Shown one piece after another: positions 44,222 through 62,400 of a stretch of DNA of 64,000 bases. Under the pieces are notes generated by a model, which did no database searches, was not told the origin of the DNA, and saw nothing but the letters and a program-made list of their open reading frames with translations. Location: positions 1 through 64,000 of the forward strand of contig JAPMOS010000082.1 of assembly GCA_027972325.1 (NCBI GenBank), read 5' to 3'. The stretch comes from Paratrimastix pyriformis (Eukaryota > Preaxostyla > Paratrimastigidae). Made by a program: the position numbers and the translations under genes. Each line of letters begins with the position of its first letter. The first letter of the stretch is position 1.

Positions 44222-44254
44222 CGGGAGAAGGACAGGCCGTGGCGCCTCCGGGCC

Positions 44255-47200
44255 GTGCTGACGGGTTTTGAGTCCAAGGAGGAGGCCCTGAGAGCGGAGG
44301 AGCAGGTGCGGCACCCGCGGAAGAGGGGCCTCCGACGGATCCTCACGGCGGCGGGGACGGTGCGCGTCATGACGGACTTCACCCGGAAGAAGGGGAGCGG
44401 CCTCCACCTCTGGTGCGCCTCGGCGGCCCTGGCCCAGTCGCTGGCTCGGAGCGAGCATGTGACGATCAGCCACGGGAGCCTCGTGCACCTGCAACAGGAG
44501 GAAGCCCGGGAGGGCCCCCTGCGGCAATGGGAGGAGGCCAATGAGCGGCGACTCACCACCCTGGAGGCCATTGCGGACCTGCTGACGAGCGCCCGCAGAG
44601 GAACGGAACGAAGGCGACCGCACCAAGGCGAAGGGCGCGAGCAAGGGGGTTGCGCTCGACCGAGACCGAGACAGACGCGTGTGCAGCGGCTGAAGGCGAT
44701 GCTGAAGAGGAAGCACCTGAGCGTGAGGCGCCCCCCGGCCCCGTATCGAGCGCAGCTGGCCCGGGCAGCTAAGATGGACCGAGAGACCCGAAACGCCGCC
44801 CAGAGGGCCATGAAGGCGGCCAAGGCCGGGAAGCACCTGCACCTCTTCTTCACGGCCCGCAGAAGGCTTCACCGAGCGCTGATGGGCAAGCAACGGGCAG
44901 CCTGTGCAGTGCCCAAGGCGAAACTCCTCGAGCACCACCGCCGCGAGGCGGGGAGAAGGCAGGAGACGGGGGGTGACGCCCTGGAACGGTGGCTGCGAGG
45001 CCTGCCGAAGCCAGGAGGAGGGGAGCGGGAGGCCTCCGAGATGTGCGCCGAGGTGAAGACGGAGGAGGTGGTCCACGTAATCAGCCGGGCCCCCCGCGGA
45101 GTGGCCCCGGGCGACGACGACGCGGACACTGAGTTCCTGCGGAGAGTGGCGACAACATTGGGGGAAGAGTCGAGGCTGATGAGAGGCCTGGCGCGCCAAT
45201 TCACGAGCCTCATGAGGGGGAACGGGAGCCCCGACCGGCTGGTCCCTCTCGGCCGCAACGCTCCTCCCAAGCCCGGGGCGGACCTCACCAAGGCGAAGGC
45301 CTGGCGGCACGTGACCCTGGGGGATACCCTCTCGAGGGTCTACGGCGGAGTACTGGCCGACCGTCTGACGAACTTCATGGTGCCGGGGAGGCTCGCCCAA
45401 GCGCAATGCGGCTTCGTGGCCGACGGGCGGGTCCACGTGTGGACGCTCACCGAGATGCTGTGCAAGGCCAAGAGGAAGGAGGCATCAGTGGCTGCGGTGT
45501 GGATCGACCTGGCCAATGCGTACGGACGAGTGGACCGGGAGCTGGCCGATCGGATCCTGGACCATTACGGGGTGCCCCGGGCGTTCCGCGAGGCGGTGGG
45601 CCAGCTGTACCGGAACCCGGAGATGTACTTCAGGGGCCTGAGCGAGCGCGAGGACCCCGACGGGCACGTGCACCTCGAGCGAGGCCTGAGGCAAGGGTGC
45701 CCCCTGTCGCCAATGTTGTTCAACTGTTTGCTCAATCCCCTGCTGGAGCGCCTCGAGAGGGCGGCGGGAGGCTTCAAGTGGGGAGACGGGTCGCAGACGG
45801 CAGCCATGGCCTATGCGGACGACCTCCTCCTGACGGCCAATACCCCCGAGGAGGCAGAGCGGCTCCTGCGAACGGCCGAGGAGTACTTCGCCATCGTGGG
45901 GCTGGAGCTGAACCCCGCCAAGTGCATGGCGGCATGGATGAGCGCCGGAGAGCCGCAGCAATGGGGCCTACAGACCAGGACTGGGGCGCCGATCCCTCTG
46001 ATGGAGGCCGGGGGGGAGTACAAGTACCTGGGGTTCGTGATCAACCTGCGGCTCGACTGGGGGCCGGCCAGGGAACGGGCAAGGGCCACGCTGGAGGAGC
46101 GGCTCGCTGCAATTGATGAGTCGGAGCTGCCGCCCATGGCCAAGATCCAGACCGCCAACTGCTGGGCCGCCCCGGTGCTGAGCTACCTCTTCCCCATCGC
46201 GGACTTCCCCCTGAAGTGGCTGGGGAAGATGGAGAAGGCCTTGGAACACAGGTGCGTGGCCTGGCTGCGGAACGAGCGAGGCAAGGGGCTCCCGGGCATC
46301 CCGCATCGCTTCTTTTTCGAGCCCATCCGAAAGCGCGGGCTGGGCCTGCGGGGGCTGAAGACGGCCTACGAGAGAGATCGCCTCGCCTTTGCGGCCCGGC
46401 TCCTGGCCCACGAGGGGCAAGAGATCTCCCAGAGGGCCTGGGCCTGCTACGAGGAGCGCCGGGCGGCAGCGGACGGACTCTGGGGGTGGGTACGCCACGC
46501 CGGCATCGAGCGACGCTTCGCCTTCAAGCGTGGAGGAGAGGAGAGGATGCTGTTGGAGTACCGCCGGGTCCACGCTCATAAACTGTTCTCCCCCAAGAGG
46601 CCCAGTGGCATGACGCCAGAGGTCAAGCGGGCCCTCGAAGCGGCAGACCTGATGGAATACCTCGGACAGGCACCAGCCGACGCGGTGCTGGTCTGGACGG
46701 ACGGGTCGATGGTCCGCAGCGCGGCCAGGCAGGATGGCGGTGCAGCGGCGCTGATCGTCGGCCTACCCCCGAGGGACGAGCGGGGGTCGACCCTCGGCGC
46801 GACGATGGGCCTCCCGGGCTGCGGATCAAACGGCCTGGCGGAGCTGATGGGGGTGAGCATGGCCCTGAGACTTCTGGAGGAGGAGCAGGCAGACCGGCGG
46901 GCGAACTACATCCTCCTCAGCGATTCGCAGTACACCCTGGGGGCCATCGCGGGCGTGGCCCGCGTGGAGCGCTACCGGGACGTGGTTGGCGAGATCAGGC
47001 GAGAGCTACTGAAGTATCCCCGTCTGGTGCTGCGCTACTGCCCGGCCCACCTCGACGAGGTGGCGCTCCCGGCACCCCGCCTGCCGGCGAACCAGTGGGT
47101 CGATCGACAGGCCAGAGCAGCGGCGGAGGCGGCGAGGGGGAAGCCTCCCATGCCGCTCGGCTTCTTGGACCGGACACCCACCACGGGCCTGCAGGTCGAG

Positions 47201-48259
47201 CTCCAGATGATCACCGTCGAGGCGGAGACCCCGGTGGGACCGAGGGCGAGCGGGCCGCCCGCAGGGGACCTGCCCTTCTGCTACAGGCTGCTGAGCGAGG
47301 CGGCGGCCAAGCGGACCGCCGAAGGGTGGAACGAGGAGGACATCGCGGAGGAATGGCTGAAGGCGCCCACGGGGTGGTGGCACACCCTGGACCCTCTGGA
47401 GGGGAAGCTCTCGTCGGGCTGGGCTGGCAAGATCACGCGCCCGGTCCAGCAGCTCCGGAACATCTGCTTCGGGTTTTTCCATGCCTTCCCGGGCGTGAAG
47501 GCCGTGTCGGCCCGGTTCGGCGGCGGAGGAGACCGCTGGTGCCCCTTTGGATGCGGGGCCCCCGAGACGCAGAGCCACCTGCTGGGAGGATGCGGCAGGA
47601 AGTTCGGAGACTACTACGTCAAGAGGAGTGACGCCATCACGGACCGGGTCTTCAGGTTCCTGGCCCAGAGGGTCCCGCACAAGTTTGGATACCACGGGGT
47701 GGCCAGAACCAACAAGCAGGCAGCCTTCCCAGAAGAGGTCCTTGCCGCGGTGCCGGAGGCCAGGGACCAGCACCCGGACATCGTCCTGGAGCGGCCGGAC
47801 GGCGGGGTGGAGGTCCTGGAGATCCAGGTCACCTCGAACTTTGAGAAGGCGTTCCAGGCCAAAAGCGCGAAGTACGGGCCCCTCTGCGAGGCCCTCGCCA
47901 GGAGCGGGCGAGCGTGCCGGTACCGCATCCTCCTCTTCGGGAGCACAGGCATTGTGCCGCGCCTGACGTACCAGGAGCTCCTCGAGCTGTCACTGAGCCC
48001 GCTGGGAGCGCCGCAGAGGAAGGGCAGAGAGCCACGACCGCCGGAGGATGCTGAGGCCAGGAAAAGGCGCCTGGAGATGAGGGGCAAGGCCAGACTGGAT
48101 GTACAAAGCCTCTGCCGGCGCATCGGGACGCAGCTGGTGGAGAGCATGCTCGCCCTGTTCGGCATGAGGTGCGCAGCAACCATGAGCGGCGGCATGCGGA
48201 AGACCGACGGCAGACCGGCAAGAGCGGGAAGCCGCGCCCCCCCAGGTCGCGCCGCCTAG
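44255..48259 (+). CDS. LINE-C ORF2: RT, RNase H, zinc knuckle and restriction-like endonuclease (1334 aa)
   Basis: One uninterrupted frame. Residues 3-25 are the end of a GIY-YIG-like segment (TGFESKEEALRAEEQVRHP). The RT spans about 300-620, with motif A VWIDLANAYGRVD, LERGLRQGCPLSPMLFN and catalytic YADD at 520-523. RNase H runs from about 805: D816 in VWTDGS, E863 in LAELMG, D890 in LLSDSQ, D950 in WVDRQA. A CCHC knuckle is C1096, C1100, H1108, C1113. A PD-(D/E)xK nuclease of the R2 type follows: D1175 in HPDIVLE, E1189 and Q1191 in LEIQVT, then K and Y in AKSAKYG. The enzyme would nick target DNA, prime reverse transcription from the nick and clear the RNA. The true start lies upstream in intact copies (ATG overlapping the ORF1 stop); the internal ATG at 44255 is only the first one left. 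Confidence 0.9.
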   Translation: MLTGFESKEEALRAEEQVRHPRKRGLRRILTAAGTVRVMTDFTRKKGSGLHLWCASAALAQSLARSEHVTISHGSLVHLQQEEAREGPLRQWEEANERRLTTLEAIADLLTSARRGTERRRPHQGEGREQGGCARPRPRQTRVQRLKAMLKRKHLSVRRPPAPYRAQLARAAKMDRETRNAAQRAMKAAKAGKHLHLFFTARRRLHRALMGKQRAACAVPKAKLLEHHRREAGRRQETGGDALERWLRGLPKPGGGEREASEMCAEVKTEEVVHVISRAPRGVAPGDDDADTEFLRRVATTLGEESRLMRGLARQFTSLMRGNGSPDRLVPLGRNAPPKPGADLTKAKAWRHVTLGDTLSRVYGGVLADRLTNFMVPGRLAQAQCGFVADGRVHVWTLTEMLCKAKRKEASVAAVWIDLANAYGRVDRELADRILDHYGVPRAFREAVGQLYRNPEMYFRGLSEREDPDGHVHLERGLRQGCPLSPMLFNCLLNPLLERLERAAGGFKWGDGSQTAAMAYADDLLLTANTPEEAERLLRTAEEYFAIVGLELNPAKCMAAWMSAGEPQQWGLQTRTGAPIPLMEAGGEYKYLGFVINLRLDWGPARERARATLEERLAAIDESELPPMAKIQTANCWAAPVLSYLFPIADFPLKWLGKMEKALEHRCVAWLRNERGKGLPGIPHRFFFEPIRKRGLGLRGLKTAYERDRLAFAARLLAHEGQEISQRAWACYEERRAAADGLWGWVRHAGIERRFAFKRGGEERMLLEYRRVHAHKLFSPKRPSGMTPEVKRALEAADLMEYLGQAPADAVLVWTDGSMVRSAARQDGGAAALIVGLPPRDERGSTLGATMGLPGCGSNGLAELMGVSMALRLLEEEQADRRANYILLSDSQYTLGAIAGVARVERYRDVVGEIRRELLKYPRLVLRYCPAHLDEVALPAPRLPANQWVDRQARAAAEAARGKPPMPLGFLDRTPTTGLQVELQMITVEAETPVGPRASGPPAGDLPFCYRLLSEAAAKRTAEGWNEEDIAEEWLKAPTGWWHTLDPLEGKLSSGWAGKITRPVQQLRNICFGFFHAFPGVKAVSARFGGGGDRWCPFGCGAPETQSHLLGGCGRKFGDYYVKRSDAITDRVFRFLAQRVPHKFGYHGVARTNKQAAFPEEVLAAVPEARDQHPDIVLERPDGGVEVLEIQVTSNFEKAFQAKSAKYGPLCEALARSGRACRYRILLFGSTGIVPRLTYQELLELSLSPLGAPQRKGREPRPPEDAEARKRRLEMRGKARLDVQSLCRRIGTQLVESMLALFGMRCAATMSGGMRKTDGRPARAGSRAPPGRAA

Positions 48260-48543
48260 AGAGCGACGGACGGATCGCGCACACGACGCACCACCCCGGC
48301 ACCATCACCAGCTCCATCTTGCCCGGTCGGAGCGATCGGAGCAAGGAAGTCAGTGACCATTGACTATCTCCACCGAGCGCTCCCACGGAATTCGAGGGAG
48401 TCAATGCGGATCTGCGATTCGCACGCTTAGTGGACGCGTGTGGCATGCGAGGACTCAGGAGAGTGACAGACTTGAATGTAATAACTTGAGTTTGAATTTC
48501 AACTTAGTCTGCGTGCCGTTGAGGTTGAACACGCTATCTCTCT
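48260..48543 (+). ncRNA. LINE-C copy A 3' UTR and TC tail
   Basis: From the stop to the TCTCTCTC end this matches copy B 59098-59462, except for an 82-bp block missing after GGAGCAA (about 48345). It ends GAACACGCTATCTCTCTC. Confidence 0.8.
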
Positions 48544-48588
48544 CCGATTGTTCGGGGTTTTTCCGACGACTCAAATCAAACTCGTGTC

Positions 48589-52777: not shown

Positions 52778-54760
52778 GTGATTCCCATCCCGAAAAAAGC
52801 GAGAAAGCGTCGATCTATTCGAAAAGGAAGCAATGAAATACATAAAAAAATACAACAGAAACAAAAGATTCGCCAGAAAAAGAAAGCGCCGCGACCAAAG
52901 GCGGCTGGAAAAATTGACGCGTTCAAAAAAGGCAGAGATACTGAAGCGCAGGTTGAAGCCGCTCCGGTCGTTTTTAAATCTCCCACAACGACGGAGCCAG
53001 CCCCCCTGGTCTCTGCTTCGCTGATCGTCGTCCCGCCGATGTGGTACGCCAATGACCCAGGACTGCACCAAGGCCGCCTCGCCTGGGAGAGGGCGAAGAA
53101 AATGGAATTACAATCCAGAACCGAAAGACAGCGGGAGCTGGCCCGGGAGGTGCGAGCAATCCGGGTCAGCGCACTGACACCATGGCAATGGTTCATTGAT
53201 GGGCTCCAGGAGGCCGTCCTCCGGCCCGAGGCGGGGCGCGTCGAGGCCCTATGGGAGAAGTGGGTTCAAGAAGAAGGGCGACAGCCGGACACCCAAGCCC
53301 CGCCTAAGGCATCGGAGCACCCCGCGGCCCAACCCCGAGGGACGACCACGGACAGGGGAAAAGAGTCCCACCCCGAAGCCGCCGGAGCGCCCACCAGGGG
53401 GAGCTGCGTGGGTCAGGCCGGCCGAGAGAAGCAAACCGTGGGGGCACCGCAGCCCTCGGGGCGGGTCGGCCACCAGAGTGTGGAGGGGAAGGATGCTTCG
53501 GTCGGCGAAGCGGCCCCAACGTCGCCGGAGAAAACCCACGCCGGGGTGGCGAACCCCGGAAGGTGGTGCGCCGTCACCGCGGCGGTGCACCTGATCACCA
53601 CCATGTGCGACTCCGACCAACGGCTGGCTCAGGCATTGCGGGTCCAACCCGAGACCAGACCGCTGGCGGAATACGTGGCCGCCCTCCAGAAGGAGAGGGG
53701 CAAGGCGACCCTGGAGAAGCGACAGGTGAAGTCGCTCGACATCCCGGCTGCCCTTCGCGCGCAAGTGGAGCCACAGCTGTACGATGACAAAGGGTGTCTC
53801 CGTGGCGGCAGCGGCCGGGAGGTTGCGGAGTTCCTACTGAGACCGGTGAAAGAGCTGTTGGCCGCGGAGCTCCAGCTGGATCAGACCTGCGCCTGCCGGA
53901 AGGTGACGCTGAAGAAGGAGAGCCCCGAGCTCGGCCTGACCCTGTCCTCGGCGCAGCTGGACAAGTGGCTTGCATCAGACAGACTGAAGTGCTCTTGCGG
54001 TCGTGTTCATCACGCACAGCGGCGCATCCTCGGGGACTGGATCGTGGTCACACCGGCAGAGGGATGGACCCCACCAAGCATGATTCGGGCCGGCGACATC
54101 TACCGGTTGGCGGCCGGGCTGGTCCACACGCCACCAGCAGATGGAGGAACTCTGGCACACGAAACAGCGTTCACTGTCGGCTCCGGAAGGCGGGATGCGG
54201 TCGAGTACTCGGATGGGGCCCCCGCTCGACGGCTCCCGAGCTGGCGATCCCTGCCGGAAGGGAAGACGATTGAATGGGTCGTGTATCGCAGGGCGAACCC
54301 ACTGGAAGAGCCACAACCGGGACCGCAGCGGCGGACGGACCAAGCGGGAACCCCCGACGGAGCAGCTGGCCAGGGGAACCCCGGGAGCCCGAGGGTGAGA
54401 GGGGAAACCCGAACAACTCGAGCGTGTGGATCACCCCCGTATGGACAGCCGCGCAGGCCCAAGCGGCAGCCCGCGCGGCGGTGGGACGACGGGCTCGCAC
54501 TGCATCGATGGTCGATGGTGGGACCAGATACGGCCTGCCTGACCTTCGTGACCCGGGCGGAGGCCGAGCGGTTCATGGCGGCCCCGCTCGTAGGCCTGCG
54601 GAGGGTGTGGGGACAAGACCCCAGCTGGCAAGGCGACAGTCCGCTGCGAAGCGGCGGCCACACGGGAATGGGGCCCCGACCTGCAGGACCAATGACCCCA
54701 CGGGCCATGAGGGGCCCTGCAATGGCCGAGACGCTGAGCACCCCTCAGCGCCCGGTCTGA
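52778..54760 (+). CDS. LINE-C ORF1 with a USP-like cysteine peptidase domain (660 aa)
   Basis: The N-terminus (1-60) is Lys/Arg/Gln-rich (RKRRSIRKGSNEIHKKIQQK), suited to RNA binding. Residues 94-170 are helical (LAWERAKKMELQSRTERQRE; WQWFIDGLQEAV). Residues 170-255 are low complexity. From 261 the sequence has the block order of ubiquitin-specific proteases: a Cys box GRWCAVTAAVHLITTM with C264; two C-x-C pairs (C371/C373 and C405/C407) in the place of the USP zinc finger; a His box IYRLAAGLVH...HETAFTV with H461; EYSDG with D479; and an end strand WVVYRR (498-504). This suggests a deubiquitinase-like peptidase, perhaps stabilising or processing the element's proteins. Ulp1- and OTU-type peptidases are known in other LINEs. 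The C-terminal 150 residues are Arg/Pro-rich. The stop TGA overlaps the next ATG (TGATG). Confidence 0.75.
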   Translation: MIPIPKKARKRRSIRKGSNEIHKKIQQKQKIRQKKKAPRPKAAGKIDAFKKGRDTEAQVEAAPVVFKSPTTTEPAPLVSASLIVVPPMWYANDPGLHQGRLAWERAKKMELQSRTERQRELAREVRAIRVSALTPWQWFIDGLQEAVLRPEAGRVEALWEKWVQEEGRQPDTQAPPKASEHPAAQPRGTTTDRGKESHPEAAGAPTRGSCVGQAGREKQTVGAPQPSGRVGHQSVEGKDASVGEAAPTSPEKTHAGVANPGRWCAVTAAVHLITTMCDSDQRLAQALRVQPETRPLAEYVAALQKERGKATLEKRQVKSLDIPAALRAQVEPQLYDDKGCLRGGSGREVAEFLLRPVKELLAAELQLDQTCACRKVTLKKESPELGLTLSSAQLDKWLASDRLKCSCGRVHHAQRRILGDWIVVTPAEGWTPPSMIRAGDIYRLAAGLVHTPPADGGTLAHETAFTVGSGRRDAVEYSDGAPARRLPSWRSLPEGKTIEWVVYRRANPLEEPQPGPQRRTDQAGTPDGAAGQGNPGSPRVRGETRTTRACGSPPYGQPRRPKRQPARRWDDGLALHRWSMVGPDTACLTFVTRAEAERFMAAPLVGLRRVWGQDPSWQGDSPLRSGGHTGMGPRPAGPMTPRAMRGPAMAETLSTPQRPV

Positions 54761-54763
54761 TGT
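54757..54763 (+). promoter_or_regulatory. ORF1/ORF2 stop-start overlap (TGATG)
   Basis: The ORF1 stop TGA (54758-54760) shares its A with an ATG that opens the frame leading to GFESNEEALRAEEQ. Such TGATG/TAATG overlaps allow termination-coupled reinitiation of ORF2 in some LINEs. The mechanism here is inferred. Confidence 0.5.
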
Positions 54764-57700
54764 CGACGTGGGGCACGGCCGGGTGGGCCGTGGAGCAGCG
54801 GCCGAGCAGGGGCAGAAATTTTCGAAGGTGGGGGCCCCCAGGCTTCAAGAGTGGCGAGTGGAGGCCTGAGGGCCCCCCAAGGGGGCCGTCGCCTGGGGGG
54901 AGAGGCCGGTGGTGGTGCTGGCGGACGATGAGGAGGACCGAGCTGTGGGGCGATCGCCCACGGCCACGTGGTCTACCTGCTGGAAGAACGAAGGCGGCGC
55001 GTCTACGTCGGCAGCACCAAGAACGTGGCACAACGGCAAGGGAGGCCGGGGGAGCCCAGCGAACGGAGAAGGACAGGCCATGGCGCCTCCGGGCCGTGCT
55101 GACGGGTTTCGAGTCCAACGAGGAGGCCCTGAGGGCGGAGGAGCAGGTGCGGCACCCGCGGAAGAGGGGCCTCCGACGGATCCTCACGGCGGCGGGGACG
55201 GTGCGCGTCATGACGGACTTCACCCGGAAGAAGGGGAGCGGCCTCCACCTCTGGTGCGCCTCGGCGGCCCTGGCCCAGTCGCTGGCTCCGGAGCGAGCAT
55301 GTGACGATCAGCCACGGGAGCCTCGTGCACCTGCAACAGGAGGAAGCCCGGGAGGGCCCCCTGCGGCAATGGGAGGAGGCCAATGAGGGCGACTCACCAC
55401 CCTGGAGGCCATTGCGGACCTGCTGACGAGCGCCCGCAGAGGAACGGAACGAAGGCGACCGCACCAAGGCGAAGGGCGCGAGCAGGGGTGGCGCTCGACC
55501 GAGACCGAGACAGACGCGGGTGCAGCGGCTGAAGGCGATGCTGAGGAGGAAGCACCTGAGCGTGAGGCGCCCCCGGCCCCGTATCGAGCGCAGCTGGCCC
55601 GGGCAGCTAAGATGGACCGAGAGACCCGGAACGCCGCCCAGAGGGCCATGAAGGCGGCCAAGGCCGGGAAACACCTGCACCTCTTCTTCACGGCCCGCAG
55701 AAGGCTTCACCGAGCGCTGATGGGCAAGCGACGGGCAGCCTGTGCAGTGCCCAAGGCGGAACTCCTCGAGCACCACCGCCGCGAGGCGGGGAGAAGGCAG
55801 GAGACGGGGGGCGACGCCCTGGAACGGTGGCTGCGAGGCCTGCCGAAGCCAGGAGGAGGGGAGCGGGAGGCCTCCGAGATGTGCGCCGAGGTGAAGACGG
55901 AGGAGGTGGTCCACGTGATCAGCCGGGCCCCGCGGAGTGGCCCCGGGCGACGACGACGCGGACACCGAGTTCCTGCGGAGAGTGGCGACAACATTGGGGG
56001 AAGAGTCGAGGCTGATGAGAGGCCTGGCGCGCCAATTCACGAGCCTCATGAGGGGGGAACGGGAGCCCCCGACCGGCTGGTCCCTCTCGGCCGCAACGCT
56101 CCTCCCCAAGCCCGGGGCGGACCTCACCAAGGCGAAGGCCTGGCGACACGTGACCCTGGGGGATACCCTCTCGAGGGTCTACGGCGGAGTACTGGCCGAC
56201 CGTCTGACGAACTTCATGGTGCCGGGGAGGCTCGCCCAAGCGCAACGCGGCTTCGTGGCCGACGGGCGGGTCCACGTGTGGACGCTCACCGAGATGCTGC
56301 GCAAGGCCAAGAGGAAGGAGGCATCAGTGGCTGCGGTGTGGATCGACCTGGCCAATGCGTACGGACGAGTGGACCGGGAGCTGGCCGATCGGATCCTGGA
56401 CCATTACGGGGTGCCCCGGGCGTTCCGCGAGGCGGTGGGCCAGCTGTACCGGAACCCGGAGATGTACTTCAGGGGCCTGAGCGAGCGAGAGGACCCCGAC
56501 GGGCACGTGCACCTCGAGCGAGGCCTGAGGCAGGGGTGCCCCCTGTCGCCAATGTTGTTCAACTGCCTGCTCAATCCCCTGCTTGGAGCGCCTCGAGAGG
56601 GCGGCGGGAGGCTTCAAGTGGGGAGACGGGTCGCGGACGGCAGCCATGGCCTATGCGGACGACCTCCTCCTGACGGCCAATACCCCCGAGGAGGCAGAGC
56701 GGCTCCTGCGAACGGCCGAGGAGTACTTCGCCATCGTGGGGCTGGAGCTGAACCCCGCCAAGTGCATGGCGGCATGGATGAGCGCCGGAGAGCCGCAGCA
56801 ATGGGGCCTACAGACCAGGACTGGGGCGCCGATCCCTCTGATGGAAGCCGGAGGGGAGTACAAGTACCTGGGGTTCGTGATCAACCTGCGGCTGGACTGG
56901 GGGCCGGCCAGGGAACGGGCAAGGGCCACGCTGGAGGAGCGGCTCGCTGCAATTGATGAGTCGGAGCTGCCGCCCATGGCCAAGATCCAGACCGCCAACT
57001 GCTGGGCCGTCCCGGTGCTGAGCTACCTCTTCCCCATCGCGGACTTCCCCCTGAAGTGGCTGGGGGAGATGGAGAAGGCCTTGGAACACAGGTGCGTGGC
57101 CTGGCTGCGGAACGAGCGAGGCAAGGGGCTCCCGGGCATCCCGCATCGCTTCTTCTTCGAGCCCATCCGAAAGCGCGGGCTGGGCCTGCGGGGACTGAAG
57201 GCGGCCTACGAGAGAGATCGCCTCGCCTTTGCGGCCCGGCTCCTGGCCCACGAGGGGCAAGAGATCTCCCAGAGGGCCTGGGCCTGCAACGAGGAGCGTC
57301 GGGCGGCAGCGGACGGACTCTGGGGTGGGTACGCCACGCCGGCATCGAGCGACGCTTCGCCTTCAAGCGTGGAGGAGAGGAGAAGATGCTGTTGGAGTAC
57401 CGCCGGGTCCACGCTCATAAGCTGTTCTCCCCCAAGAGGCCCAGCGGCATGACGCCAGAGGTCAAGCGGGCCCTCGAAGCGGCAGACCTGATGGAATACC
57501 TCGGACAGGCACCAGCCGACGCGGTGCTGGTCTGGACGGACGGGTCGATGGTCCGCAGCGCGGCCAGGCAGGATGGCGGCGCAGCGGCGCTGATCGTCGG
57601 CCTACCCCCGAGGGACGGGCGGGGGTCGACCCTCGGCGCGGCGATGGGCCTCCCGGGCTGCGGATCGAACGGCCTGGCGGAACTGATGGGGGTGAGCATG

Positions 57701-59097
57701 GCCCTGAGACTGCTGGAGGAGGAGCAGGCAGACCGGCGGGCGAACTACATCCTCCTCAGCGATTCGCAGTACACCCTGGGGGCCATTGCGGGCGTGGCCC
57801 GCGTGGAGCGCTACCGGGACGTGGTTGGCGAGATCAGGCGAGAGCTGCTGAAGTATCCCCGGCTGGTGCTGCGCTACTGCCCGGCCCACCTCGACGAGGT
57901 GGCGCTCCCGGCACCCCGCCTGCCGGCGAACCAGTGGGTCGATCGACAGGCCAGAGCAGCGGCGGAGGCGGCGAGGGGGAAGCCGCCCATGCCGCTCGGC
58001 TTCTTGGACCGGACACCCACCACGGGCCTGCAGGTCGCGCTCCAGATGATCACCGTCGAGGCGGAGACCCCGGTGGGACCGAGGGCGAGCGGGCCGCCCG
58101 CAGGGGACCTGCCCTTCTGCTACAGGCTGCTGAGGCGAGGCGGCGGCCAAGCGGACCGCCGAATGGTGGAACGAGGAGGACATCGCGGAGGAATGGCTGA
58201 AGGCGCCCACGGGGTGGTGGCACACCCTGGACCCCTCTGGAGGGGAAGCTCTCGTCGGGCTGGGCTGGCAAGATCACGCGCCCGGTCCAGCAGCTCCGGA
58301 ACATCTGCTTCGGGTTTTTCCATGCCTTCCCGGGCGTGAAGGCCGTGTCGGCCCGGTTCGGCGGCGGAGGAGACCGCTGGTGCCCCTTTGGATGCGGGGC
58401 CCCCGAGACGCAGAGCCACCTGCTGGGAGGATGCGGCAGGAAGTTCGGAGACTACTACGTCAAGAGGAGTGACGCCATCACGGACCGGGTCTTCAGGTTC
58501 CTGGCCCAGAGGGTCCCGCACAAGTTCGGATACCACGGGGTGGCCAGAACCAACAAGCAGGCAGCCTTCCCGGAAGAGGTCCTCGCCGCGGTGCCGGAGG
58601 CCAGGGACCAGCACCCGGACATCGTCCTGGAACGGCCGGACGGCGGGATGGAGGTCCTGGAGATCCAGGTCACCTCGAACTTTGAGAAGGCGTTCCAGGC
58701 CAAAAGCGCGAAGTACGGGCCCCTCTGCGAGGCCCTCGCCAGGAGCGGGCGAGCGTGCCGGTACCGCATCCTCCTCTTCGGGAGCACAGGCATTGTGCCG
58801 CGCCTGACGTACCAGGAGCTCCTCGAGCTGTCACTGAGCCCGCTGGGAGCGCCGCAGAGGAAGGGCAGAGAGCCACGACCGCCGGAGGATGCTGAGGCCA
58901 GGAAAAGGCGCCTGGAGATGAGGGGCAAGGCCAGACTGGATGTACAAAGCCTCTGCCGGCGCATCGGGACGCAGCTGGTGGAGAGCATGCTCGCCCTGTT
59001 CGGCATGAGGTGCGCAACCATGAGCGGCGGCATGAGGAAGACCGACGGCAGACCGGCGAGAGCGGGGAGCCGCGCCCCCCCAGGTCGCGCCGCCTAG
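54760..59097 (+). pseudogene. LINE-C copy B ORF2 (GIY-YIG-like, RT, RNase H, CCHC, restriction-like endonuclease), frameshifted
   Basis: The same domain order as copy A, plus the upstream part missing there. At 54962-55033 one frame reads GHVVYLLEERRRRVYVGSTK then NVAQRQ, a GIY-YIG-like nuclease start (V-Y-x-L...V-Y-V-G-S-T-x-N). About 50 bases later another frame gives WRLRAVLTGFESNEEALRAE, which fits the second half of such a domain with its catalytic Glu. RT pieces follow (VWIDLANAYGRVD; YADD near 56661), then RNase H (VWTDGS near 57535), the knuckle and the PD-(D/E)xK end (58336-59097, open). Comparison with copy A shows about eight single-base-scale indels, for example near 55.28, 55.39, 55.93, 56.06, 56.58, 57.33 and 58.13 kb. 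So it is not functional as it stands. Confidence 0.85.
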
Positions 59098-59462
59098 AGC
59101 GACGGACGGATCGCACACACGACGCACCACCCCGACACCATCACCAGCCCCATCTTGCCCGATCGAAGCGATCGCAGCAACGAGGTCCTATTGCCGTCGA
59201 TCAGGAGTGACGACGACGAGAACGAACGAGACCCATGAAGAGCACGACGAAGAAGAAGTCGGAAGTCAGCGACCATTGACTATCTCCACCGAGCGCTCCC
59301 ACGGAATTCGAGGGAGGCAATGCGGATCTGCGATTCGCACGCTTAGTGGACGCGTGTGACATGCGAGGACTCAGGAGATTGACAGACTTGAATGTAATAA
59401 TTTGAGTTTGAATTTCAACTTAGTCTGCGTGCCGTTGAGGTTGAACACGCTATCTCTCTCTC
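59098..59462 (+). ncRNA. LINE-C copy B 3' UTR and TC tail
   Basis: About 365 bp from the stop to TATCTCTCTCTC. It contains an extra block (about 59180-59262, GAGGTCCTATTGCC to AAGAAGAAG) relative to copy A. Confidence 0.8.
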
Positions 59463-59479
59463 TAGAGTTGCACGAAAGT
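59463..59479. repeat. Putative target-site duplication of LINE-C copy B, right
   Basis: TAGAGTTGCACGAAAGT, identical to 51163-51179, begins at the base after the TC tail. Confidence 0.65.
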
Positions 59480-62400
59480 GGGGGGAAAAACGTGTTGGCC
59501 CGGGGACAATGGGGCAATTGCCGGAGAAGAACGATGAAAGGGGTGAGGGAAAGGAGAAGTAAGAGAGGGAAGGGGAGACGATACAAGAGGAAAAGAAGAG
59601 GATTCATTTCAAGAAAAGGGACAAAAAGAAAGGATTTTACCCCACTCACCGTTTTAGCCCATCTTGGCGTTGGGGTCGCTCTCCATCTTGTACTGGTCGA
59701 GAGCCACGTTGAAGCATGCCAGGCCCGTGCTCTTGTGGTGGGCGGTGGCGGCCTGGGCCCAGGTCTCCTCGAGCGCCGCACCCCAGCGGGCCAGCGTGGC
59801 AGCAAAGCGAGCCAGCCAGAAGGAGCGGTTGAAGGTCCGCTCGGCCTTGCGGTGCGCCTCACCCACCAGGTGGAAGAACTTCTCGGCCTTGGGGCCAAGC
59901 TGAGCGACCACCGTGATGCCGAAGGGCCAGAGGTTGCCCGGGTTCTTCGCGCACCATTCCTTGTAATCGGTCTCCTTCTGTGCCTCGGCCTGGCTCGGCA
60001 CGTCCCCTCGGGCAGCGGCGGCGGAGTGGGAGATGGCCAGGGGCTCGGCCACTACCAGGTCGAGGTAGTGCACCCCTCCGGAGACGAAAGTGAAGGAGAT
60101 GTCGGGGCGGCGCACCTTCGCCTTGGGGCACGCGCGGGACGGGTCCCACGGCGGCAGCTTGGGGCCGTAGTCCAAGGATTGCTCGGCCCGGACGATGCAG
60201 CCGGGCGTGGTGTGCAGGAGGGACACCAGGATGGATCGCACGTTGTTGTGGCGCTTGTAGTAGAGGTTGCGAGCACACTTGCAGAGGCGCTCGTGGCCCT
60301 GGGCGATGTCCTTCTTGCAGACGGGGCACATCTCAGGTCCGAAGGGGCCCGAGAAGATGGCATGGATGGAGGGAGCGCAGGCGGCTCCGGCCAGGCGCAT
60401 GACCAGGGCTGTGAAGTCTGCATCCGAGAGCCTGAGGAGATTCGAGGGAAAGGCGGCGAGGAGGGCAGTGGTAGCGGGGTTCACCGAAGAGAGCCTCATG
60501 TTGCGAGCCGGCCCGGGGGGGAGGCGCGCAAGAGCCCTGGCGGCCGCAGCCTTGTGCCGATCCGCCAGAAGACTGTGCTGAACCTGGCCTCGCAGGGTCT
60601 TCCCATCTGCACCACAAAAACGCGGCAGAGCCGCGCAAGGTTTGGCCGGAGCTTCCCGACGAATCGAGAAGCTCTTGGCAGCGGTGCGGAGGGAGTCCCC
60701 CACGAAGCTGGGTCCATCCAGCTTGGCGATCCCGGCAAGAAGCGTCGACAGCCGAGGTGAAAGGTCCTCGACGGCGTTGAAGAGCGAGATGAGGCCCCCG
60801 ACCTGCATGGCCTCCTGTGAGTCACACAGAGGGGGGAGGCCCAGCCCACCCTCCGAAGGGGGCAATGAGATCACGTCATCGAACAAGGAGGGGGGCTGCC
60901 CCGCAGGCAGGAGCGGGAGGCCAAGCTTCTCCTTGACGAGCAGGCGAAGGGAGGCATCGAAACGCCCAAGACCACCCTCTGGGCCGGGGAGCAGGCCGTG
61001 GTCCTAAGAAGATAGGTCAGCTTGGGCAACACGCAGAGGCGAAGGAGCAGGATGAACGACTGCGACGACAGCTCAGCGAGCTTGCGAGCCAGCTCCAGGG
61101 CGCCCTCAACCTTCTTGGCCACCACCTCGGCCACCTTGCACGCCGGGCCGAAGGGGACCCCGAGAACCGTCACCCCGTCCGCCAGGCGACGGACGGGTAG
61201 AGGAAGCCCGCCAGGGACCAGGCGGACTTTGGGGTCGAGAGCATTGGAGAGAACCCAACACTTCTCGGGGCTGATCTCGAAACCCAGGGGAGTGATGAGG
61301 GCGCGCAGGAGACCCAGAAGGTGCTGGGCAACGTCGGGAGAAGGTGCCAACAGGAGAATGTCATCAAAGTAGCTCAGAACGCGGGGGACGACCAGGCCCA
61401 AGCCCTCTCCCGGGAGCATGAGCCTCGGAATTGCCTTGTCCGCCTCGAGGGCCTGCAGGGCTGGGTCGAGGATCCCTGCAAACAAGGGGGGGCTCGCCGG
61501 GCATCCCTGGCGGACTCCTCTTGCATTAGGGACCCTCTCCCCACCGGAGAAAAGGGCCTCGTTAGCGTACAGACCTTGGACCAGCTTGACAGCCGGTTGG
61601 CTCCACCCGACGCGCTGAGCGGCCAGGGGCACCGCCTCGCGCGAAGGGGCTTGGAACGCGTTGCGGAGGTCGACAGCCACAAGGCAGTAGGGCTGCCGAC
61701 CCGCCTCGCACGCCTCCACGACGGACGCTGAGATGCATGCCATGAGGGGCGCACCCTCCTTGACGGACACACCAAACTGGAAGGGTGAAAGCCTCTCCCT
61801 CGTCACCCCCTCGAAGCGCCGAACCAGCAGCCTCATGGCGAGCCTGCAAAGGGTCTCGCTAATTCCAATCGGTCGCGTGCCTCCTTTGGGCTTCGGGATC
61901 GCGACAAGTCGGGCTGCGGCCAGGGTCGGGGGGAGACGCCCGCACTTCACGAAGAAGTTCAGGGCCTCGGCGAGCAGAGGCAGGATGGCAGGATCTTTGC
62001 GGACCGCGCTGCGGATGTGGTCGGGGGCCAGGCCACTCGGACCCGCAGCGGCCCCGTGCTTGAAGCCGAACAAGGCGCGCCTGACATCGCGGTCGCTGAA
62101 GTGCGGCGCCGACTCGTCCGGGCCGGGAGCCTGGCTTGGCCGGTAGAAAGCTTCCGCCTCGGAACACCCACCGTCTGGGCGGCAACCGCCAACAGGGCGG
62201 CGGTTGCCTCATCCACCTCGACCCCCGTGGGTTCGTCCCCACGGATCTTCCCACAGAGGGACTCCAGCTTGGCACGGAATTCATGAGCGAAAGGAACCAC
62301 TTTGCCAAACGGGAGGGTGGACGGAATATGCAACTGGGCGAACGGGGGCGGCGGGGGGCGAACGTCGGGCGGGGGTCCAGGACGAGCAGAGGAAGCGGAA

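Follow-up and report, generated by a model that had tools for sequence, protein, structure and literature searches.

Can one retrotransposon protein carry both a GIY-YIG nuclease and a restriction-like endonuclease (REL)? This question is raised by a long interspersed nuclear element (LINE) in a stretch of 64,000 nucleotides (positions 1 to 64,000 of contig JAPMOS010000082.1, forward strand; here called the window) from Paratrimastix pyriformis, a free-living anaerobic flagellate of the Preaxostyla, Metamonada. Published accounts assign GIY-YIG domains to Penelope-like elements and REL to elements lacking long terminal repeats (non-LTR elements) (PMC5718144). A further account, which also names the Dualen/RandI clade, describes canonical non-LTR elements as encoding APE and/or REL and Penelope-like elements as possibly encoding GIY-YIG (PMC5753468). 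The published P. pyriformis assembly comprises 56.6 Mb with 60.94% GC, and a word search of the main text of that genome paper gave no term starting with 'transpos' (PMC10703272). A preliminary description of the window proposed a LINE whose second open reading frame (ORF2) joins the two nucleases to a reverse transcriptase (RT). Our analysis of the genome points to four or more families, A to D, forming one clade whose ORF2 almost certainly encodes, in this order, an SLX1-type GIY-YIG domain, RT, RNase H, a CCHC zinc finger and REL.

Intact copies with two nucleases in one open frame

The proposed union of GIY-YIG and REL in one ORF2 was borne out by single open frames in two copies, L039 and L043. 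L039 lies at C484, where GIY-YIG (74488-74691), RT and REL (78151-78543) fall within one 1744-aa open frame and the REL is 98% identical to that of the window. Its uninterrupted ORF2 of 1737 aa has Pfam matches to GIY-YIG (residues 355-421, E 7.3e-11) and RVT_1 (residues 742-999, E 2.6e-27). A profile search located the REL in this frame as well, and RNase H motifs and the CCHC finger were read from the translation; Pfam RNase_H was listed for the window copy and not for L039. L039 has two ORFs, with ORF1 (913 aa) upstream of ORF2 in another frame. This ORF1 (128-2869) has tandem repeats and an extended stretch of glutamines near its N-terminus.

L043, a copy of the diverged family C, encodes GIY-YIG, RVT_1, RNase_H and REL in one 1515-aa ORF in the same order as L039. 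The copies read of families B (L042, L044, L049) and D (L041, L046) show this set of domains too, but their frames are interrupted or, in L044, the 5' part is truncated. Over the RT-REL part, family A shares 31-34% identity with B, C and D. No APE (Exo_endo_phos) was among the Pfam matches of L039 at E<=1 or of L043 at E<=0.1. When the GIY-YIG portion of this L039 protein was used as query in a protein search, one match was obtained, PAPYR_9035 of P. pyriformis.

The interrupted copy in the window

Re-reading of the window confirmed the motifs quoted in the preliminary description, on the + strand and in the order claimed (Table 1). A single window ORF2 was not found: the two GIY-YIG halves are out of frame, and RT is split between two frames (Pfam RVT_1 E 3.5e-14 and 1e-7, one per frame). 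RNase H was matched by Pfam RNase_H at E 1.8e-7, and the first GIY-YIG half at E 8.9e-4 (20 bits, under the 22.6 cut-off). The GIY-YIG motifs are present, but the domain is not intact in this copy. A 17-bp deletion at about 55027, overlooked at first, removes the VVRRML/catalytic-Arg segment, shifts the frame and leaves the halves in different frames; the SLX1 type of the domain had likewise gone unrecognized. Further lesions are a 1-bp insertion after the 17-bp deletion and a 1-bp deletion ahead of GIY-YIG. The C-terminal REL claimed for the window has neither a Pfam match nor a PDB sequence match; its identification comes from characteristic residues together with a structure model.

The last 855 bp of the window element are 98.7% identical to L039, and window DNA upstream of about 54804 (52778-54804) had no match to that copy. 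The mismatch on the ORF1 side, together with the near-identical 3' part, suggests that the window element is a chimera with an exchanged ORF1. A second LINE meets the first tail to tail (59654-62208, - strand; RVT_1 E 1.2e-20 at 60871-62073). By eye it contains a REL-like RRPDISF...LDLVVAEP stretch, and it forms a long branch in the RT tree.

Table 1. Features of the LINE copies in the window
Feature	Position	Strand	Basis or remark
ORF1 frame, 660 aa	52778..54757	+	Pfam: no match
GIY-YIG motif, first part, VVYLLEERRRRVYVGSTKN	from 54968	+	motif
GIY-YIG (SLX1-type), first half, VVY...YVG	54968..55027	+	
17-bp deletion site	55027..55028	+	alignment to reference copies L039, L001 and L002; deletion common to L059
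GIY-YIG, second half, GGAQRTEKDRPW...ALRAEEQVRHP	55048..55158	+	presumed catalytic Glu; other frame than first half
GIY-YIG motif, second part, GFESNEEALRAEEQVRHP	ends 55158	+	motif
RT, in two frames	56105..56879	+	Pfam RVT_1
YADD of RT	within 56646-56672	+	motif
RNase H domain	57521..57964	+	Pfam RNase_H
RNase H acids	within 57530-57961	+	motif
CCHC zinc finger	58381..58434	+	by motif
REL, PD-(D/E)xK, R2-like	58468..58836	+	residues and structure model
HPDIVLE (REL)	58612-58632	+	motif
LEIQVT (REL)	from 58657	+	motif; quoted motifs overall span 54968-58716
Conserved 3' end, (CT)n tail at terminus	59380..59463	+	
Second copy of the same LINE, 5'-truncated within GIY-YIG	44223..48544	+	REL uninterrupted

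Association of GIY-YIG with RT across the genome

Profile searches of the P. pyriformis genome itself (56.06 Mb) yielded counts that are lower bounds. Spacing was surveyed for 64 of 111 RT matches (those reaching the N-terminal RT) and 45 of 82 GIY-YIG matches, hand-picked. The GIY-YIG matches left out are presumed PolB-type genes, judged by profile range and frame length, with translations checked at L005, L007, L056 and L058. PF01541 lay 805-1021 bp upstream on the same strand for 27 of the 64 RT matches, on many contigs. These pairs comprised six of family A (805-839 bp), three of presumed family D (823-841 bp) and 18 of presumed family B or C (924-1021 bp), the family being assigned from spacing where the locus was not read. 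Another 12 RT matches were rows with 25-28% identity that belong to an APE-type group; the two that were read, L047 and L048, have an APE-type domain slightly under the Pfam cut-off and no GIY-YIG match. Both also have a weak match to Pfam UCH (ubiquitin hydrolase) before APE (E 1.1e-3 and 3.2e-4, under the cut-off).

Nine of the other 25 RT matches were read upstream. GIY-YIG is present and interrupted in four (window, L059, L046, L060), the copy at 44223 begins inside GIY-YIG, and the second element of L040, L062, L064 and L065 are 5'-truncated before it. No full-length family of the clade lacking GIY-YIG was met in this survey, which took in the upstream DNA of 9 of these 25 RT matches. The expectation that most full-length copies carry GIY-YIG in frame is borne out within the loci read, which include 9 of the 25; L039 and L043 have it in one open frame with RT, RNase H and REL. 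For the spacing of GIY-YIG to REL, 45 GIY-YIG matches, one of them different from the set used above, were compared with 70 REL matches hand-picked among those listed (151 in total). For at least 13 of the 45, a REL on the same strand followed at a distance of no more than 12 kb, and in 10 of these cases the distance was 3.4-4.3 kb.

A GIY-YIG gene or fragment might have come to lie beside a LINE by chance, through insertion or assembly; the out-of-frame halves in the window and the many other GIY-YIG genes of the genome would agree with such an accident. Its probability is negligible in view of the 27 near-constantly spaced pairs on many contigs, and it is contradicted by the open frames of 1737 and 1515 aa in L039 and L043. 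Nor is GIY-YIG supported as a separate insertion, given that its near-constant spacing to RT recurs across diverged families.

Many genome GIY-YIG matches look like stand-alone proteins of ~250 aa, at loci including L005, L007, L056 and L058. By reading, L005 and L007 have a DNA-polymerase-B-like frame beside GIY-YIG, which suggests Polinton-like elements. L055 (C135:484500-485400) is a GIY-YIG-like frame with SCG replacing YxG, and the adjoining 4.5 kb that were read hold no RT.

Identity of the GIY-YIG domain

The best PDB matches of the family A GIY-YIG domain were SLX1 endonucleases (five distinct sequences, E 1.6e-12 for 7wme to 2.9e-10), with 49% identity to 7cq2 over 67 columns. Next were the bacterial 1zg2 (E 3.1e-7) and 1ywl (E 0.14), proteins that have been assigned to the Slx1 family too (PMC1564403). 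The best solved match of the family C domain was also an SLX1 (6seh, E 2.5e-8). In all four families a pair of Tyr is kept, together with the Arg in second place of RR/HR and a Glu six residues ahead of a conserved Pro; the Glu of families B and C was aligned by hand, MAFFT having placed it elsewhere. We take these Tyr, Tyr, Arg and Glu to be the catalytic residues of GIY-YIG. In a small GIY-YIG tree, LINE domains and SLX1 rows stood together against PolB-type GIY-YIG rows (100/100). Judged by these comparisons, the LINE GIY-YIG domain is SLX1-type. The host SLX1 exon L050 fell among the solved SLX1 rows (95/97), apart from the LINE domains, and recent capture of the host SLX1 gene is therefore not indicated.

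Several observations weigh against the overall explanation proposed below. The LINE rows did not form one clade in the small tree, and the whole L043 protein scored 21.4 bits against PF01541, slightly under the 22.6 cut-off. The LINE version also differs from SLX1 in being fused to RT and REL and in having no RING finger in Pfam scans of L039 and L043, whereas orthodox SLX1 has a RING domain and a partner, SLX4 (PMC1564403).

For the family pair B/C, estimates of dN/dS by NG86 support, but do not prove, a constraint on GIY-YIG similar to that on RT, with values of 0.24 for GIY-YIG (71 codons), 0.27 for RT (145 codons) and 0.52 for the stretch after GIY-YIG (87 codons). Two results limit this support, namely weaker GIY-YIG values in other pairs (0.43 for A/C, 0.57 for A/D and 0.69 for A/A1, the last on very few changes) and a dS near 1 in the wider family pairs.

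REL domain and placement of the RT

An AlphaFold2 model of the REL had a mean pLDDT of 53.8 over 298 residues, with blocks of 77-86 in residues 121-190. The top five Foldseek matches of the model were R2 retrotransposon proteins (E 1.2e-4, for 8gh6, to 1.0e-3). Telling against this likeness, TM-scores were low (0.26-0.31 by query), and the R2 proteins were closely followed in rank by viral cap-snatching endonucleases. With these modest scores, the REL is R2-like by predicted structure. Its P-D, D/E and K residues are retained in families A, B and C and in P0001 and P0002, and both family D copies that were read have the REL broken across frames. The family D breaks would suit a degenerate REL that leaves GIY-YIG as the sole endonuclease; retention of the residues elsewhere and the best match of the model to R2 proteins make this very improbable.

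The RT tree was built from 42 of 77 RT rows, hand-chosen to thin redundant APE-type rows. Families A to D clustered with P0001, P0002 and P0019 (93/86), and the other window LINE stood beside this cluster. The A-D group lay on one side of the tree with the R2 rows and P0018 (93/98), apart from the remaining rows, which are mostly APE-type by Pfam. The R2 rows, three near-identical spider sequences only, formed with P0018 a branch of their own (99/96) adjoining the GIY-YIG LINEs. P0001, P0002 and P0019 interleave with the GIY-YIG families; as listed, P0001 and P0002 start shortly before RT, and P0019 starts further upstream, yet by reading after the place of GIY-YIG. On the sequence evidence of an RT among non-LTR rows, a C-terminal CCHC and PD-(D/E)xK, and no APE, the element is a REL-type non-LTR retrotransposon.

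Element ends, insertion sites and copying of broken elements

Of 30 family A loci retrieved through their REL, 28 extend to a common 3' end, which is CTATCTCTCTCTCT or has a CT run that is a little shorter. Their flanks differ by eye; L022 and L039 have a repeat in common there. In family B (two copies) and family C (one copy) the terminus is TGTCTCTCTC or a CT run of greater length. At L043 (family C) and at one family B element of L042, (GAT)n begins directly behind the element, and the D copy L046 has (TG)n at its end. Ends of this kind fit target-primed reverse transcription with a short repeat tail, and a common 3' end combined with 5'-truncated copies is in keeping with a REL-type non-LTR retrotransposon. 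At six loci of families B, C and D (L040, L042, L043, L046, L049, L063), the 5' or 3' end of a copy borders on a stretch rich in (ATC)n/(GAT)n or (GT)n. The position of B, C and D copies at microsatellites possibly reflects a target preference.

Such sites bear on a different order of events, in which REL cuts second, after GIY-YIG has made the first nick or picked the target in the way proposed for Penelope-like elements. GIY-YIG mutants of a Penelope-like element lose DNA cleavage (PMC11167929). Target choice may vary by family, since (GAT)n borders some copies of B and C and (GT)n borders some of D. A first nick by GIY-YIG nonetheless seems unlikely to us: the domain is SLX1-type, and SLX1 acts on junctions, not on sequence. 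In addition, the P-D, D/E and K residues of REL are intact in A, B and C, and it is the REL of R2 that nicks the first strand.

The window copy and L059 (C477 ~76 kb) have the same 17-bp GIY-YIG deletion, yet their 3' flanks are unlike. Over 477 bp, L059 also shows 100% identity to the truncated copy at 44223. Shared deletion and differing flanks, compared on the 3' side only, indicate that sequences with a broken GIY-YIG were still copied, perhaps through trans-action or because the domain is dispensable. This weighs against an essential role of the domain. Mobilization of broken copies would also accord with a GIY-YIG module that does not cut and whose role would be to bind branched DNA or to compete with host proteins for the SLX4 scaffold, Slx4 being the partner of Slx1 (PMC1564403). 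We consider a non-cutting module improbable; four families retain the Tyr, Tyr, Arg and Glu presumed to form the active site, and a pure binder need not retain them.

A possible division of labor and its significance

Overall, these elements are probably best explained as a REL-type LINE clade with an acquired SLX1-type branched-DNA nuclease. Junctions and flaps are the substrates of the SLX1 nuclease. Cleavage of an open four-way junction by R2 protein provides a primer for second-strand synthesis (PMC6895275). Taken together, the two activities imply that the added domain most likely acts on a branched intermediate. REL would nick the target, where the 3' end of the RNA would be used for primed reverse transcription. 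The SLX1-like domain would then act on the branched intermediate (open four-way or flap) and would make, or help make, the second-strand cut, thereby freeing the primer for second-strand synthesis. This division between a REL nick and an SLX1-like second-strand cut is drawn by analogy, and we offer it tentatively, with slightly more reserve than conviction. It is possible, if doubtful, that the lineage gained a junction-cutting enzyme of its own, so that target nicking (REL) and intermediate resolution (GIY-YIG) are split within one protein.

R2 provides the counterargument, as it has no GIY-YIG domain. It performs the second-strand cut itself (PMC6895275), and a second nuclease is thus not needed in principle. 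The P. pyriformis elements resemble R2-type LINEs in an RT that falls on one side of the tree with the R2 rows, CCHC followed by a C-terminal PD-(D/E)xK REL, and a REL model nearest to R2 proteins. They differ in having RT preceded by the SLX1-type GIY-YIG and followed by RNase H, in the two ORFs of L039, and in dispersed insertions, the 28 of 30 family A loci having the same CT tail and differing flanks. Dualen, as generally known, pairs APE with REL and is likewise a LINE with two different endonucleases; the pairing of GIY-YIG with REL sets the present elements apart, by the description of Dualen and not by its sequence.

We know of no Penelope-like element with a REL. The presence of REL here, by which GIY-YIG is not the only endonuclease, distinguishes the P. 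pyriformis LINEs from those elements, with which they have RT and GIY-YIG in one protein in common (PMC11167929). Penelope-like elements have a telomerase-like RT and, in canonical ones, a C-terminal GIY-YIG (PMC11167929). The RT described here adjoins R2 rows, in a tree built from rows other than Penelope or telomerase ones. Furthermore, Penelope and Slx1 are listed as separate GIY-YIG families (PMC1564403), and in rotifer Terminons, which belong to the same subclass as Penelope-like elements, GIY-YIG-like nucleases may sit in separate ORFs (PMC6431247). For a GIY-YIG/RT construct of shrimp, the authors found the parts not linked (PMC3849965). In the open-access literature, surveyed mostly through listings and with Repbase and subscription papers outside the search, we found no described LINE with both GIY-YIG and REL, and the earlier suggestion that this two-nuclease design may be new stands within that scope.

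A LINE with GIY-YIG and REL departs from the stated split in which GIY-YIG goes with Penelope-like elements and REL with non-LTR elements (PMC5718144). The completion of LINE integration is poorly understood, and cleavage of a branched four-way intermediate has been proposed to allow second-strand synthesis (PMC6895275). The P. pyriformis elements offer a naturally occurring case where single-residue mutants may allow cleavage of the first strand to be separated from that of the second.

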